Source: Desulfovibrio sp. (GTDB lineage Bacteria; Desulfobacterota; Desulfovibrionia; Desulfovibrionales; Desulfovibrionaceae). Taken from it: a DNA stretch of 64,000 bases. The position numbers and the translations under genes are program-made. Positions 29,752 through 36,661 of the stretch are shown in pieces (the stretch's first letter is position 1; each line of letters opens with the position of its first letter). The notes beneath the pieces are model-generated. The model saw only the letters and a list, made by a program, of their open reading frames with translations. It did not search any database and was not told where the DNA came from. The DNA is taken from contig JAQYWK010000001.1 in assembly GCA_030145055.1 (NCBI GenBank), positions 124,001 to 188,000 of the forward strand, given 5' to 3'.

Positions 29752-30171
29752 TTAAACTTTGCCAAGCACACTTCCGGGAAGTGAGTGATTAAGCGCACCG
29801 GACTGCTGACTGTAAGCTGAAAGAGCTCTGCTAAGCATGCGGCTGGAATTACCGGGAACATATGTGGTGGAATCATCAGAGCGGGCCATTTGAGTTTGCG
29901 AAAGATATTTAGCAACATCTTGAACATGCTGTTCTTCGCTCTGAGCACGAGGATATGAATTTGAACGAAACGTTTGCGAGCTACTTTCGGCTTCACTTGG
30001 CTCAAACTCGAGGTCCTTTGCAATGAAGTTTACCCCAAGCTTACCTAAACTGAACCCGAAACTGCGCGTCTTTACGCGCGCCTGTACGCTTTCGGACGGA
30101 TTTTCCGCATTTACAAGCTCATTTCGCCCGTTTTCAGCATATATATTTAAGCCTTGCGATGCTATACGCAT
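29752..30171 (-). CDS. Unrecognised 139-residue protein behind structured leader
   Basis: The start at 30171 is chosen because TGGAG lies 7-8 nt before the ATG. The frame stays open upstream, but no better ribosome-binding site is seen there. The product is hydrophilic and Ser/Gln/Glu-rich, with no signal peptide or membrane segment. A basic middle part (VKTRSFGFSLGKLGVNFIAKDLEF) is followed by a likely disordered, Ser-rich C-terminal half. I do not recognise a family. The leader contains hairpins with GGA loops and an intrinsic terminator, so expression may be controlled by attenuation or by CsrA. Confidence 0.6.
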   Translation of the reverse strand: MRIASQGLNIYAENGRNELVNAENPSESVQARVKTRSFGFSLGKLGVNFIAKDLEFEPSEAESSSQTFRSNSYPRAQSEEQHVQDVAKYLSQTQMARSDDSTTYVPGNSSRMLSRALSAYSQQSGALNHSLPGSVLGKV

Positions 30172-30206
30172 ACCGTACTCCACATTTGAAACCGATCCAC
30201 GTTCAC

Positions 30207-30240
30207 AAAAAAGCCCGACAGCCATCACTGGCAATCCGGC
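30207..30240 (-). terminator. Intrinsic terminator / attenuator
   Basis: On the minus strand an imperfect stem GCC.GGAU..GCCA/UGGC..GUC.GGGC (30240 to 30213) with a GUGA loop is followed directly by six T (30207-30212). It lies 36 bp before the downstream start codon. Confidence 0.65.
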
Positions 30241-30333
30241 GTTCCTGCGGCTCTGCCGCATTCATCCATGAAGGATACGTGGGATTTTCGGCTTCCATCC
30301 GTGGAAGCATCTAAATTTTCTATCTGATCAACT
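30207..30333 (-). ncRNA. Candidate CsrA/RsmA-binding small RNA or leader RNA
   Basis: A compact minus-strand unit with a promoter, about 127 transcribed bases and an intrinsic terminator. It can form GCUUCCA-CGGA-UGGAAGC (30291-30308), UUCA-UGGA-UGAA (about 30261-30272) and UGCGGC-AGA-GCCGCA (30246-30260). The first two loops present CACGGAUG and CAUGGAUG, both matching the CANGGAUG core known for CsrA/RsmA sites. Three further GGA triplets are present (UGGAAGC, AGGAAC, CCGGAU). It could be a stand-alone sponge RNA or the 5' leader of the gene at 29752-30171. A 31-codon frame overlaps it and may explain some of the sequence. Confidence 0.45.
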
Positions 30334-30339
30334 GTTTTA

Positions 30340-30368
30340 AACATAATACGTTGAATCAGGTTTGGCAA
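30340..30368 (-). promoter_or_regulatory. Probable sigma-70 promoter of the candidate RNA
   Basis: Minus-strand TTGCCA (30363-30368, 5/6 matches) and TATGTT (30340-30345, 4/6) are separated by exactly 17 bp. Start of transcription is expected near 30333. Confidence 0.55.
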
Positions 30369-30447: not shown

Positions 30448-31287
30448 ATGAGCAACAAAATTCTTCAGAAAAAAGCTTTGATTCCAGGCCAGACAAGCCT
30501 GCTAGTTATCGACGCTCCACAAATTGCCAAAAAGGCAAAACCGGGAAATTTCGTAATTCTTCGTATCCATGACAAAGGGGAACGCGTTCCACTTACTATC
30601 GCTGATACGGACCCGGAGGCCGGAACTATCACTATTGTGTACCTCGTTGTAGGTAAAAGTTCGGCTCTTCTTGAAACATTAAAAGAAGGTGAGATCATCC
30701 TTGATGTCTGCGGACCTCTCGGAAAACCGACTCACATTGAAAAATGCGGCACAGTTATCTGTGTTGGCGGCGGAACCGGAATCGCAGCCATGCACCATAT
30801 TGCTAAAGGCCACCATAAAGCGGGCAACCACGTCGTCGCCATTGTCGGCGCACGTAGTAAAGACCTGCTTCTTTTTTGTGACGAACTCGGCGGATTTTGT
30901 CCTGAACTCCTTATCGCAACTGATGATGGAAGTTCCGGCCATAAAGGATTCGTAACGGATGTTCTTCGTGACCGTCTTGAAAAAGACAAAGACGTTACGG
31001 AGGTTGTCGCCATCGGCCCTGTCCCCATGATGGAAGCTGTTGCGAAAGTAACCAAACCTTTTGGAGTCAGAACAGTTGTAAGTTTGAACTCTATCATGGT
31101 TGACGGCGTAGGTATGTGCGGAGCTTGCCGTTGTAATGTTGGTGGAGAAACCCGCTTTGCATGCGTAGACGGGCCAGAATTCGACGGACACAAAGTTGAT
31201 TTCAACGAACTCAGAATGCGCCTCGCTCAGTATAAAAACCAAGAGAACGAATCAATGGATTTATTCAGGAGGGAGCATGGCAATTAA
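30448..31287 (+). CDS. nfnA: NADH-dependent ferredoxin:NADP+ oxidoreductase, small subunit (NfnA)
   Basis: A 279-residue ferredoxin-NADP reductase-like protein with FAD-binding RVPLTIAD (about 49-56), nucleotide-binding CVGGGTGIAAMHH (about 105-117) and a C-terminal [2Fe-2S] motif MCGACRCNVGG..RFAC (about 221-237). With NfnB it makes the electron-bifurcating transhydrogenase linking NADPH, NADH and ferredoxin in anaerobes. Older names include sulfide dehydrogenase beta subunit. GGAG precedes the ATG. It overlaps nfnB by 11 bp. Confidence 0.9.
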   Translation: MSNKILQKKALIPGQTSLLVIDAPQIAKKAKPGNFVILRIHDKGERVPLTIADTDPEAGTITIVYLVVGKSSALLETLKEGEIILDVCGPLGKPTHIEKCGTVICVGGGTGIAAMHHIAKGHHKAGNHVVAIVGARSKDLLLFCDELGGFCPELLIATDDGSSGHKGFVTDVLRDRLEKDKDVTEVVAIGPVPMMEAVAKVTKPFGVRTVVSLNSIMVDGVGMCGACRCNVGGETRFACVDGPEFDGHKVDFNELRMRLAQYKNQENESMDLFRREHGN

Positions 31288-32885: not shown

Positions 32886-33893
32886 ATGACTATGGACAAA
32901 TTTGATTTCGATGCAACGCTCCTGACTGTAAATTTTGCTACCAGACTTCTTGCAATGGAGCTGGATAAAGACACCCTTCTAGACCGCACATTAGAAGCAT
33001 TCTGTGATCTAGGGTCATGCAAAGACGCCGCCATAATGACCTATGATCGAAAAGGGGATTTGATTGTGGTAGCTGCATCTCTTGATCATGAAAGATCATT
33101 TCCAAATGAAACCGTTCCAATGACTAAGGCAATGGACGAGGCAGCCAAAAGCCGCGCCCCTGTGACCAGGCCGAAGCACGAGGGGTCCCTGTACCCACTT
33201 CCCGGAGACAGCTGTGAAGAATGCCCCGAAACCTGTCTATGCATTCCGTTGGTTGGATCGCGTGACCTCGTTAAAGGATTCGTTACGCTTTACCGTAAAA
33301 ACGACAAGCCATGGTCCAATGCCGAACTGTTCCAACTAGGAATTGTTTCAACAGTTGCTGCAATATCATATGAAAACTCAGAATTATTCCGACAGACAAT
33401 AGAAGACAGCCTCACCGGCTTATATATGCGTCGCTATCTCTTCATAAGACTAGAAGAGGAAACACAAAGAATTAAGCGTAGGGGCGGCGACCTTTCTGTC
33501 ATAATGATTGATATCGATCATTTCAAACTGATCAACGACTCCTACGGACATGCCACAGGCGATGAAGCTCTCAAACAAGTAGCAGAAATTCTGCTCCAAA
33601 ATTCCAGACGTGGCGCAGATATCGTTTGCAGGTACGGCGGAGAAGAGTTCGCAGTACTCATGCCAGGCTCGAAAAAAGAGGACGCCATGATAGTGGCTGA
33701 GCGCATGCGAATAGGTTGTGCTGAATCTAAGATTTTAACAACCGGTGGCGAAATTAAAGTTACCATAAGTGCCGGAGTCGCAAACTTGGATGAATGTGAT
33801 TTGCTGGCAGGTGACGCAATGCTTAGAATCGCGGACAAACGGCTATATTATGCGAAAAAATCCGGACGTAACCAAGTTGTTTGCGACGGGTAA
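32886..33893 (+). CDS. GAF-GGDEF diguanylate cyclase with cysteine cluster
   Basis: A 335-residue cytoplasmic protein. A GAF domain (about 20-165) is joined to a GGDEF domain (about 172-332). The active-site signature is GGEEF (251-255), and the inhibitory I-site RxxD (RGAD, 242-245) stands five residues before it, so it should make c-di-GMP with product inhibition. The GAF domain contains C110, C113, C117 and C119 in a CxxCxxxCxC cluster, which may bind a metal or Fe-S centre, or sense redox. It is a single gene with a weak ribosome-binding site. Confidence 0.88.
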   Translation: MTMDKFDFDATLLTVNFATRLLAMELDKDTLLDRTLEAFCDLGSCKDAAIMTYDRKGDLIVVAASLDHERSFPNETVPMTKAMDEAAKSRAPVTRPKHEGSLYPLPGDSCEECPETCLCIPLVGSRDLVKGFVTLYRKNDKPWSNAELFQLGIVSTVAAISYENSELFRQTIEDSLTGLYMRRYLFIRLEEETQRIKRRGGDLSVIMIDIDHFKLINDSYGHATGDEALKQVAEILLQNSRRGADIVCRYGGEEFAVLMPGSKKEDAMIVAERMRIGCAESKILTTGGEIKVTISAGVANLDECDLLAGDAMLRIADKRLYYAKKSGRNQVVCDG

Positions 33894-34054
33894 ATTAAAT
33901 ACCAATAGGACACAATTAAAAGTCACCCATCGACAACCCTCCATACCACACCGCACGTCCCCAACCATATTTTATTCAAACGAATTATTTGAATCCAACG
34001 CAGAATAGAGTTATAGATCTCGATATCATGACCATTCACTCCATGGAGGGAGCG

Positions 34055-36661
34055 ATGCACGACAATAAATACGCTCATGGCGGAAATATCAAAAAACTGG
34101 CAGAGAAAGCAGGATGCCCGTCAGACGAACTCCTTGATTTTTCGGCAAATATCAATCCACTCGGGCCGCCACCTTGGCTCCAGCAAGTTATCGTTAACGC
34201 TCTTGACGAAATTGACCGCTACCCCGATCCTGAAAGCGCAGAGCTGACCCTTGCCGCCTGCCAGAAATATAAAGTGTGGCCCAATGAATGTATCGCTGGA
34301 AACGGTGCGTCCGAGTTAATTAATACCATCACGCGCATTGGCGGATTCAAACGGGCTGTTATCCCTGTGCCCTGCTATGTTGACTATGAGCGCTCATGCG
34401 TTGTTGCCGGACTTAAAACCGAACAAATACCGCTCGATCCGCAAAATGGTTTCGCGCCGGATTTCGATACTTTATCATCATTTCTATCAGCCGCCCCAGC
34501 GCTGGTATTTCTCGCACAACCAAACAATCCCACTGGCACGGCCTTTGACCCCGAATCCTTAAAAAAAATTGCCCGCGAACACCCAGAATCACGTTTCATT
34601 GTAGATGAATCATTCGCCGACTTCGTTCCAGATCTAGACAGACTTGTGGGGCAACGCCCTCCAAACGTAATCACAATTCTTTCGCTCACAAAATTTTACG
34701 CCATACCGGGGTTAAGACTCGGGTTGGCATTTGCCACACCAGATATAATACTGGAGCTTAAAAATATTCTGCCCTGTTGGTCGGTAAATCTGCTGGCACA
34801 AAAGGTCGGGCTGAAATGTATTAATGATGATGAATACGCACGCAAAACAATAGAAACGACTACCCGTTTGCGAGAAGAATTGGTTCGGGAAATAGCAAAA
34901 ATACCGGGCATCCGAACCCTGCCTGCGGAAGCAAATTTCATGCTCTGCCAGATTCAACGAGTTGGAATGAATGCCGACGCGCTCATCGACCATCTCATAA
35001 GTAACAATATTGCTGTGCGTCACTGCGACAATTTCGATGGTCTCGATTCCACATATTTCCGCATAGCCGTCCGCACCGAAGAAGAAAACCGTAAATTCAT
35101 AGACGGCCTTCGCTCCTTCACAGGTATGGAAACCACTCCGCCCGAACCGAGGAAAACGCCAGCCCTGATGATTCAGGGTACTTGCTCCAATGCCGGAAAA
35201 TCCATCCTAGCCGCAGCATTCTGTCGTATATTCCTACAAGATGGCTACAAAGTTGCACCCTTCAAAGCACAAAATATGTCCCTCAATTCCTTCGTCACAG
35301 AAGACGGCTTAGAAATGGGCCGCGCACAAGTGACCCAAGCCGCCGCCAGCAAGCAAGCGCCCAATGTCCGCATGAATCCAGTTCTATTAAAACCGAACAG
35401 CGACATAGGTTCACAGGTTATCGTCATGGGTAAACCTGTCGGCAACATGAAAGTTAAGGAATACGTTGAATACAAACCCACAGCCTTTGATGCCGTAAAA
35501 TCGTCCTACGATTCTCTAAGCAATGAAAATGATATTATGGTGATTGAAGGGGCCGGATCGCCAGCTGAAATCAACCTGAAACAGCATGACATCGTCAACA
35601 TGGCAATGGCGGAATACGCCGAGGCCAAGGTCATCATCACAGGCGATATTGATCGCGGCGGAGTATTCGCGGCACTTTCAGGAACCATGGATCTAATCGA
35701 TGCCAGCGAGCGCAAAATGGTCTGCGGCTTCTTGCTGAACAAATTTAGAGGGGACGCTTCACTGCTCACCCCCGCCTTCGATTTTATGATGGACCACACG
35801 GGCAAACCTGTACTTGGAGTAATCCCACACATAAATAATTTGGGGTTGCCTGACGAAGATTCCGTTTCATTTAAAGATGACTTAAACAAATCCGGCAGCA
35901 AGGAAACGAGGAAAGATTCGGTAGATATCGTCTGCATAGATCTGCCACGCATCTCAAATTTCACGGACCTCGACGCGCTTAAAGGCGAACCGGACGTAAA
36001 CTTAAGGATTGTAGATAATCCGAAAGATTTAGGAAATCCTGACGCGATAATTATACCCGGAAGTAAATCAACCCTCTCTGACCTAGCGCATCTGCGCGAA
36101 AACGGATTGGCTGAAGCGATTCTGAAGCACAAAGATAAAGCCGCAATTATAGGAATCTGCGGAGGATTCCAAATGCTAGGCCAATATATCAGCGACCCGA
36201 AAGGAATAGAATCCACAGAAGGGACCGCAAACGGACTAGGGTTACTACCGCTACAGACAACACTTGCGCCAGAAAAGACCTTGAGCCGTACAACGGGAAT
36301 TCACGGGGTGAGCAAGATGGAAGTCAGCGGGTACGAAATTCATCACGGCAAAACCGAACCGCTACTGCCAACAGTGCGCGCCATCATAGTTCCACAAGGC
36401 GTAGAAGGGTCAGTGCCTATTTCAAAAGTGTTAGGATTCGGAATAAAATCTGGAATGATATGGGGAACGTATCTGCATGGTATCTTCGACGCAGACGGAT
36501 TCAGAAGATGGTTCATTGATTCACTGCGCGAGAAAAGGGGATTGCCCAAGCTAGAAACGATCCAGACCACCTTCGGGATGGAAGATGCGCTGGACAGGTT
36601 AGCTAAAATCGTGCGGGAGAATGTTGATATGAAGGCTGTTTATGGGGCTTTGGGGTTGTAA
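34055..36661 (+). CDS. cobQ: Fused threonine-phosphate decarboxylase-like / cobyric acid synthase
   Basis: An 868-residue two-domain enzyme of cobalamin synthesis. Residues about 1-365 are a class I PLP aminotransferase fold of the CobD/CobC type ([17 protein letters not shown], Schiff-base Lys213 in SLTKFY). Residues about 370-868 are CobQ: P-loop-like [19 protein letters not shown], and a glutamine amidotransferase domain with catalytic Cys702 in GICGGFQ and YLHGIFD. The first half would make aminopropanol phosphate and the second would amidate the corrin ring. GGAGGGAG lies just before the ATG at 34055. cobS is found at 56635. Confidence 0.9.

Follow-up and report, generated by a model that had tools for sequence, protein, structure and literature searches.

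A structured RNA leader precedes a small orphan gene on the minus strand of the window, the 64-kb (64,000-nucleotide) stretch of Desulfovibrio sp. DNA analysed here, and the question this locus raises is what the RNA responds to and where it came from. A sequence-only reading had suggested either a CsrB/RsmZ-like RNA that sequesters CsrA or an attenuated, CsrA-controlled leader of the gene at 29752. The architecture on which it built lies where that reading had placed it: a promoter (30340-30368, minus; -35 TTGCCA at 30368-30363, a 17-nt spacer and -10 TATGTT at 30345-30340) leads into a segment of about 127 nt, counted to the last U of the U-tract, that ends in a stem plus six T. The -35 TTGCCA is kept in 16/17 genomes of the window's genus, the -10 being less constant in the genus alignment, and transcription of the leader would start near 30333. 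The leader as a whole (30172-30333, minus) is conserved in all 17 genus genomes, with the same gene 3' of it each time. From the last U (30207) to the ATG (30171) of this 139-aa gene there are 35 nt, and the Shine-Dalgarno GGAG (30178-30181, minus) is invariant in the genus and complementary to the 5' arm of hairpin 1. With blastn only, the leader match was strong in 16 genus genomes and shrank to a 30-nt piece in G002; one related locus, in Desulfovibrio sp. UBA2564, came from a second contig scan, the first having returned none. A CTTGCC(A) -35 element also stands at similar spacing 5' of hairpin 1 in several genera (L032, L049, L052, L054, L108, L117 and others).

Coding conservation of the small frame that overlaps the leader, a possibility the same reading had raised, found no support. 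It appears not to be a gene: in 16/17 genomes the stretch that runs from the predicted transcript start to hairpin 1 contains no start codon, the other genome has one TTG there, and in two of the 17 genomes in-frame stops lie directly 5' of hairpin 1. No Rfam family reaches threshold in a scan of the 64-kb window, and at E 10 the four matches around the leader are at chance level, none of them from the c-di-GMP clan. RNAalifold, run on the genus alignment, returned hairpin 1, the stem of hairpin 2, hairpin 3, the terminator and a long-range helix, CC[A/G]CG...CG[U/C]GG.

The gene downstream (29752-30171, minus; MRIASQGLNI...) encodes an orphan protein whose relatives occur in 110 of 272 genomes of the bacterial family and 92 of 199 of the order, with one match each. 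No significant Pfam or NCBIfam family and no PDB relative at E 1 was found for it. Its alignment (A4) combines a core resembling ARVxTRxFGFxLGKxG with a tail of the form AY...LG.V at the C-terminus; the predicted fold is unfit for structure search because of its low mean pLDDT (55.9) and pTM (0.19), and residues 31-56 may possibly form a beta hairpin. The divergent neighbour starts at 30448 and combines an NAD-binding domain with a DHODB-type FeS domain, which we read as NfnA-like; such a gene was seen at 54/90 loci, always divergent, many of the fetched stretches being too short to show it. Further along the window, lepA is situated downstream. On the plus strand, about 2.5 kb from the leader, a 335-aa protein (32886-33893) with an RYGGEEF motif looks by eye like a diguanylate cyclase, and an 890-aa ORF (33989-36661) looks, again by eye, like a fusion of an aminotransferase-like CobD part and a CobQ-like part.

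The argument turns on hairpin 1 (30291-30308, minus; GCUUCC-ACGGAU-GGAAGC), the counterpart of riboswitch helix P2, whose ANGGAN hexaloop occupies 30302-30297. It had been drawn before as a 7-bp hairpin, GCTTCCA-CGGA-TGGAAGC (30308-30291), accompanied by three further GGA triplets; all are present, the triplets starting at 30296, 30245 and 30237. With loop ACGGA[U/C] the hairpin recurs in 17/17 genus genomes, and the only change in its 6-bp stem there is one C-to-U, giving a G-U pair, in G013. When the window's 370-nt region was shuffled 100 times with dinucleotides preserved, no strict ANGGAN hairpin arose, and both strands of the 64 kb hold two ANGGAN hexaloop hairpins with a stem of at least 6 bp, hairpin 1 being the GC-rich one. 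A DNA operator was also considered and rejected: the genome holds this one copy of the perfect hairpin 1 palindrome, plus two places that differ from it by a single mismatch, a count that does not suggest a regulon with operators of this kind.

Beyond the genus, upstream DNA was taken from 90 of about 127 listed homologs (the 17 of the genus, 13 more and 60 spread over genera, with g29 homologs left out) and searched with a relaxed pattern, CC-ANGGAN-GG with a stem of at least 4, in which the loop could also have 5 or 7 nt and one bulge was tolerated. This hairpin was found in 60/90 leaders against 1.08 expected from shuffles, a comparison that overstates independence since the pattern was widened after the leaders had been viewed and many rows are close relatives; the opposite strand gave 3/90. 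The strict hexaloop hairpin was present in 44/90 leaders (0.41 expected from shuffles), and the relaxed one in 16 of 25 genus labels. It was missing in 30/90 homologs, with 0/13 in those outside the family (f4 and f2), 0/13 over g38, g21, g10, g14, g31 and g41 together, and 4/15 missed in g5. Among 26 distinct hexaloop versions (alignment A6) all four bases turn up at the second loop position and U, C or A at the last, while the constancy of CC, A, GGA and GG is no argument because these rows were selected by that pattern. Their stems have 80.2% of cells paired against 70.0 in shuffles, and in 26 cells both sides have changed, where shuffles give 12.3 (0/500 reach it); the number of compensated pairs (5) and the pair types are no higher than in shuffles, and the two outermost stem pairs are mostly unpaired. 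The expectation of the sequence-only reading that stems and GGA loops would be conserved in relatives was borne out by hairpin 1, within the genus and among most of the homologs, with compensated stems.

Hairpin 2 (30261-30272, minus; UUC-AUGGAU-GAA, or UCANGGAUGA with a variable N in the genus) presents a second GGA, kept in 17/17 rows of alignment A3, where N is U, A or G and one row reads GGAAGA. The 4-bp hairpin TTCA-TGGA-TGAA (30272-30261) proposed earlier exists in the window, but its stem is not kept in the genus, where the conserved part is UC/GA around the hexaloop; other genera place the GGA one base earlier in the hexaloop. In the joining segment CGAAAAU (30284-30290, minus; register from alignments to model R1, described below), C30290, G30289 and A30287, which we take to be the counterparts of Vc2 C44, G45 and A47, are invariant in 20 rows of alignment A9 covering the window's genus (g1) and the genera g5, g28 and g20. 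Hairpin 3 (30246-30260, minus; UGCGGC-AGA-GCCGCA), found by RNAalifold in the genus, has one pair changed on both sides in 7/17 genomes (six G-C and one U-G against A-U) and four compensated pairs in other genera.

The intrinsic terminator (30207-30240, minus; GCC-GGAUUGCCA...UGGCUGUC-GGGC + U6, stem 30240-30213, U-tract 30212-30207) has a stem that covaries in the genus, columns 89-121 being GC in 10 rows, CG in 4, AU in 2 and other in 1, with 7 cells changed on both sides against 1.8 in shuffles (0/500). Past the U-tract lies the 3' strand of the long-range helix, ACGUGG (30197-30202, minus), which pairs with CCACGU (30282-30277). One of its pairs is A-U in 8 genus rows and G-C in 7, and the 7-pair helix has 86.6% of cells paired and 9 in which both sides have changed, compared with 3.4 for shuffles (0/500), two inner pairs being unpaired in 5 and 7 rows. 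Since this strand follows the U-tract, the read-through RNA appears to have a selected structure. In three g5 leaders (L099, L104 and L149) the U-tract can pair with an A-run immediately 3' of it, leaving a loop AUGGA or AUGGGA, possibly a third GGA site that would mask the U-tract too.

The origin of the leader is visible only from related genera, and the earlier reading missed its descent from the c-di-GMP-I clan, as sequence comparison indicates. The Rfam model RF03167 (c-di-GMP-I-GGC) matches leaders of g28, g20 and g5 across its full length, positions 1-80, those of g5 more weakly. Six of the first 12 loci searched were matched (L113, 1.5e-7; L058, 2e-7; L102, 4.9e-5; L099, 0.067; L150, 0.26; L149, 0.52), as were six of the next 13 (L116, 5.4e-7; L100, 1.9e-4; L106, 0.0016; L103, 0.003; L104, 0.061; L152, 0.98). 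No match was obtained in 6/12 and 7/13 loci, respectively, four of the latter seven coming from the window's genus, and all leader matches stay below the gathering score of 59 bits, at 44 bits at most. In a whole-genome search of 118 relatives RF03167 matched the leader locus in G035 (6e-9), G043 (1.8e-8) and G061 (0.008). The window leader itself has no RF03167 or RF01051 match in the Rfam searches, and no c-di-GMP-I or c-di-GMP-I-GGC riboswitch above cut-off was found in the 17 genus genomes.

A covariance model, R1, was made from 12 leaders of g5, g28 and g20 in the c-di-GMP-I fold and without the window's genus; these leaders are close (effective number 1.03) and R1 E-values are rough. In seven pairs of R1 both sides have changed (3.4 in shuffles), mainly in hairpin 3, and 8/9 pairs of P3 never vary, so that P3 draws its support from homology and not from covariation. 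R1 finds the window leader at 30318-30229 with a rough E of 1.3e-7, its sole match in the 64 kb, and 16/17 genus loci with E no higher than 2.7e-4, G002 being missed. When whole genomes of the genus were searched, the leader locus was the best match in 16/17 (E 1.6e-7 to 0.007), with two weak matches elsewhere in the 17 genomes (E 0.26 and 0.72). Of 30 canonical c-di-GMP-I-GGC loci R1 recovered 29 at E <= 1, 28 of them at E below 0.01. From the RF03167 matches in relatives, together with the R1 matches to the window, the genus and the canonical loci, we conclude that the window leader and c-di-GMP-I riboswitches share descent. Two genomes under one genus label also carry four tandem c-di-GMP-I-GGC aptamers each, at G076:C105:30423-30774 (352 bases) and G110:C2:42531-42910 (380 bases), loci L180 and L174; a triple tandem is already on record (PMC4759541).

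Like the riboswitches of clan CL00126 (c-di-GMP-I, RF01051; c-di-GMP-I-GGC, RF03167), the leaders have P2 and P3 in this order and a terminator after P3, and those of g5, g28 and g20 share the core GCCAA...GCGGAAA-CCACGGGUC...GAC-GG-CCGGG-UGC; canonical relatives run roughly AAAGCCAAACC-stem-GNRA-stem-GGGACGGAAAGCCACGGGUC...GAC..CCGGGUUGCC. They differ at the P2 loop, which by eye is GNRA in 29 of the 30 canonical loci printed and ANGGAN in none (the 30 being the best scorers against a model that already contains a GNRA-type loop), whereas in the leaders of alignment A10 it is ANGGAN or, in g20, a 7-nt variant in 12/12 rows, in place of the GNRA tetraloop used for docking on a receptor. They differ, too, in a P2 internal loop shortened to AA/GC from the canonical AAA/GAC, and paired altogether in the window's genus, and in a P3 tip enlarged by hairpins 2 and 3. 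At the places that presumably correspond to Vc2 G20, A47 and C92, the leaders of g5, g28 and g20 have G, A and C. The window's genus, unmatched by Rfam, keeps what we take to be the counterparts of C44, G45, A47 and C92, and its equivalent of position 20 is A in 15/17 genomes and T in 2/17 (in the ungapped register; the window's own R1 alignment is ambiguous here). The three contacts G20, A47 and C92 are those named for the Vc2 ligand in PMC4744006, where changing G20 brings a 30,000-fold loss of binding.

P3 tells a similar story in the genus, where 0/9 pairs covary and the 84.3% of cells paired equals the shuffled mean. It is perfect in G007-type leaders and has two mismatches in window-type ones; antitermination by P3 within the genus was rejected on these mismatches and the missing covariation. 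The aptamer of the window's genus thus looks eroded, and ligand sensing has probably been lost or changed, given the A at the position 20 equivalent, the closed P2 internal loop and a P3 without covariation.

Aptamer and hairpin do not always occur together. Counting as aptamer-like the 12 R1 training leaders and 23 with an R1 match at E below 0.01, the 90 leaders divide into 32 that are aptamer-like with hairpin 1, 3 aptamer-like only, 28 with hairpin 1 only (among them the genus member G002 and L055, a borderline case) and 27 with neither. A terminator-like element, defined as five T after a stable 40-nt fold, was found in 28/35 aptamer-like leaders vs 2/28 with hairpin 1 only, in a scan that called L103 negative after picking an earlier T-run and that covered too early a stretch in the three aptamer-like rows without hairpin 1. 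Aptamer and terminator thus appear to tend to travel together, and the ANGGAN hairpin is retained even in leaders where neither can be detected, which suggests a role independent of them.

The loop suggests what that use may be. According to a 2020 review (PMC7652899), high-affinity RsmE targets carry a hairpin whose hexaloop is ANGGAN, with variation at the N positions, and dimers bridge sites 10 to 63 nt apart; the two GGA loops of the window leader are 33 nt apart. By the same text most SELEX-derived CsrA hairpins have at most 4 contiguous pairs, against at least 6 in the stem of hairpin 1, and additional loop bases can reduce affinity. The window genome has one csrA, adjoining fliW, and the encoded protein carries the RNA-binding residues L4 and R44 as well as N55. 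According to PMC13407953, N55 of CsrA is linked to FliW binding, and Geobacter sulfurreducens has no characterised sRNA of the CsrB/C type. csrA was found in 223/269 family genomes and in 108 of the 110 genomes with the orphan protein (a raw count, kinship included), the two absentees, G241 and G293, being 73% and 82% complete.

With moderate confidence we therefore favour, of all the readings considered, a leader that is CsrA-responsive and was exapted from a c-di-GMP riboswitch. Its ancestor, judging from covariance-model homology, would have been a c-di-GMP-I clan riboswitch made of aptamer and terminator, in which the GNRA loop of the P2 hairpin was replaced by ANGGAN to give a high-affinity CsrA/RsmE-type hairpin; the motif match is seen, and from it we infer that CsrA binds hairpin 1 and with what sign it acts. 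The fold of the window leader would most likely be set by CsrA and, via CsrA, by FliW. CsrA would grip hairpin 1, and perhaps hairpin 2 too through the second site of the dimer; otherwise the 5' arm of hairpin 1 would pair with the Shine-Dalgarno GGAG, as in the predicted full-leader fold. In that fold the pairing has a mean probability of 0.34-0.87 across the 17 genus leaders and hairpin 1 is almost unformed at equilibrium (P <= 0.06 in 16/17), so it would need holding during transcription. Held by CsrA as the RNA emerges, hairpin 1 would free the ribosome site, and translation would be favoured, since forcing hairpin 1 raises the predicted access of the Shine-Dalgarno in 14/17 leaders (and lowers it in 3/17). 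With hairpin 1 and the Shine-Dalgarno (nearly) constant across the genus, the alignment offers no covariation that could bear on their predicted pairing.

The conserved terminator would then set the amount of read-through. Activation, the sign we prefer from these predicted folds, would resemble the routes proposed for moaA, phz2 and ymdA; with the alternative sign CsrA would repress by bridging hairpin 1 to the Shine-Dalgarno GGAG, as in glgC. The second suggestion of the sequence-only reading, an attenuated, CsrA-controlled leader of the 29752 gene, is thus preferable to its first: the ANGGAN loop, the stems compensated across genera, the conserved terminator and the constant gene 3' of it all agree with it, CsrA being the inferred partner.

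In g5, g28 and g20 the 3' strand of P3 overlaps the terminator 5' arm (alignments read by eye), so a ligand or CsrA that stabilises P3 should give read-through. A more far-reaching reading starts from the docking of the GNRA loop of P2 on P3, as found in ordinary c-di-GMP-I aptamers. The P2 loop and the P3 tip of this lineage both carry GGA hexaloops, and a protein might have taken over this tertiary contact of the riboswitch: a CsrA dimer would clamp P2 to P3 via the two hexaloops, the leaders of g5, g28 and g20 would read c-di-GMP plus free CsrA, and those of the window's genus CsrA alone. Free CsrA would here report FliW and the flagellar export state, and the window's genus would represent the next step, with its ligand site decayed. 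We regard this elaboration as speculative and rather unlikely.

Equally doubtful, in our judgement, is that the leader works as a cyclic-dinucleotide riboswitch with no role for CsrA, ANGGAN being a new docking loop in place of GNRA. Ligand would form P3 and block the terminator (an ON switch), and the A that the window's genus has at position 20 may have brought a change of ligand, for instance to cGAMP, which G20A variants of the c-di-GMP-I class sense. The co-occurrence of aptamer core and terminator (28/35 vs 2/28), the overlap of the P3 3' strand with the terminator 5' arm, the presumed counterparts of C44, G45, A47 and C92 and the A found in 15/17 genus genomes all agree with such a switch. 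It accounts less well for an ANGGAN that remains in 28 leaders without an R1-detectable aptamer, for a genus P3 in which 0/9 pairs covary beside a paired P2 internal loop, and for the absence of any c-di-GMP-I riboswitch above cut-off from the 17 genus genomes; the change of G20, moreover, is the one that costs Vc2 its 30,000-fold of binding in PMC4744006.

Improbable, in turn, is a translational switch built on the pyrimidine-rich 5' arm of hairpin 1 as an anti-Shine-Dalgarno, the GGA loop being bound by another protein or by none: the arm does complement GGAG, with the predicted pairing (0.34-0.87) given above, but an ACGGA loop in 17/17 genus genomes and the recurrence of the GGA loop (60/90 vs 1.08) would be left unexplained.

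Least of all do we expect the CsrB/RsmZ-like sponge, a terminated RNA of about 127 nt that would sequester CsrA in trans: with CsrB, CsrC and RsmX/Y/Z the leader shares GGA-loop hairpins (two), a sigma70-type promoter and a conserved intrinsic terminator, and once terminated it could titrate one CsrA dimer as a by-product, but sponge RNAs carry many GGA hairpins, about five or more, whereas only two conserved hairpin-displayed GGA occur here in the genus, R1 gives a single good match per genome in 16/17, in one fixed mRNA context with the same gene each time, the covarying helix requires RNA past the terminator, which does not fit an independent RNA gene complete at that point, no terminator was found in 26/28 leaders with hairpin 1 only, and FliW is encoded beside csrA.

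Returning to the exapted, CsrA-responsive leader, its closest known likeness is the moaA leader of Escherichia coli, another riboswitch-type aptamer carrying two GGA sites. According to the 2020 review (PMC7652899), CsrA binds two sites in the aptamer of the moaA Moco riboswitch and is proposed to alter its fold and expose the Shine-Dalgarno, and moaA is called the first case of dual control, by a cofactor and an RNA-binding protein, on one aptamer. The window leader differs in aptamer class, in gene and in having ANGGAN at the tertiary docking loop, its CsrA site being a candidate. With the leaders of glgC, flhDC, phz2 and ymdA it shares GGA sites, one of them displayed by a hairpin loop, as well as a GGA located at the Shine-Dalgarno; it differs from them in being riboswitch-derived with a conserved intrinsic terminator. 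Among the titles and abstract openings covered, with subscription journals mostly outside the scope, we found no report of CsrA acting on a c-di-GMP riboswitch.

If this reading is true, two signalling systems, c-di-GMP and CsrA, may meet in one RNA. To moaA the leader would add another riboswitch aptamer on which CsrA acts, this one of a different class and from a bacterium distant from Escherichia, and here the docking loop itself would have become the CsrA site. The series of leaders with a full aptamer, an eroded aptamer and the hairpin only offers a stepwise test of how sensing may change from ligand to protein. For the sulfate reducers, the gene behind the leader becomes a candidate CsrA/FliW target, and an uncharacterised protein family may be under two regulators of motility and biofilm.
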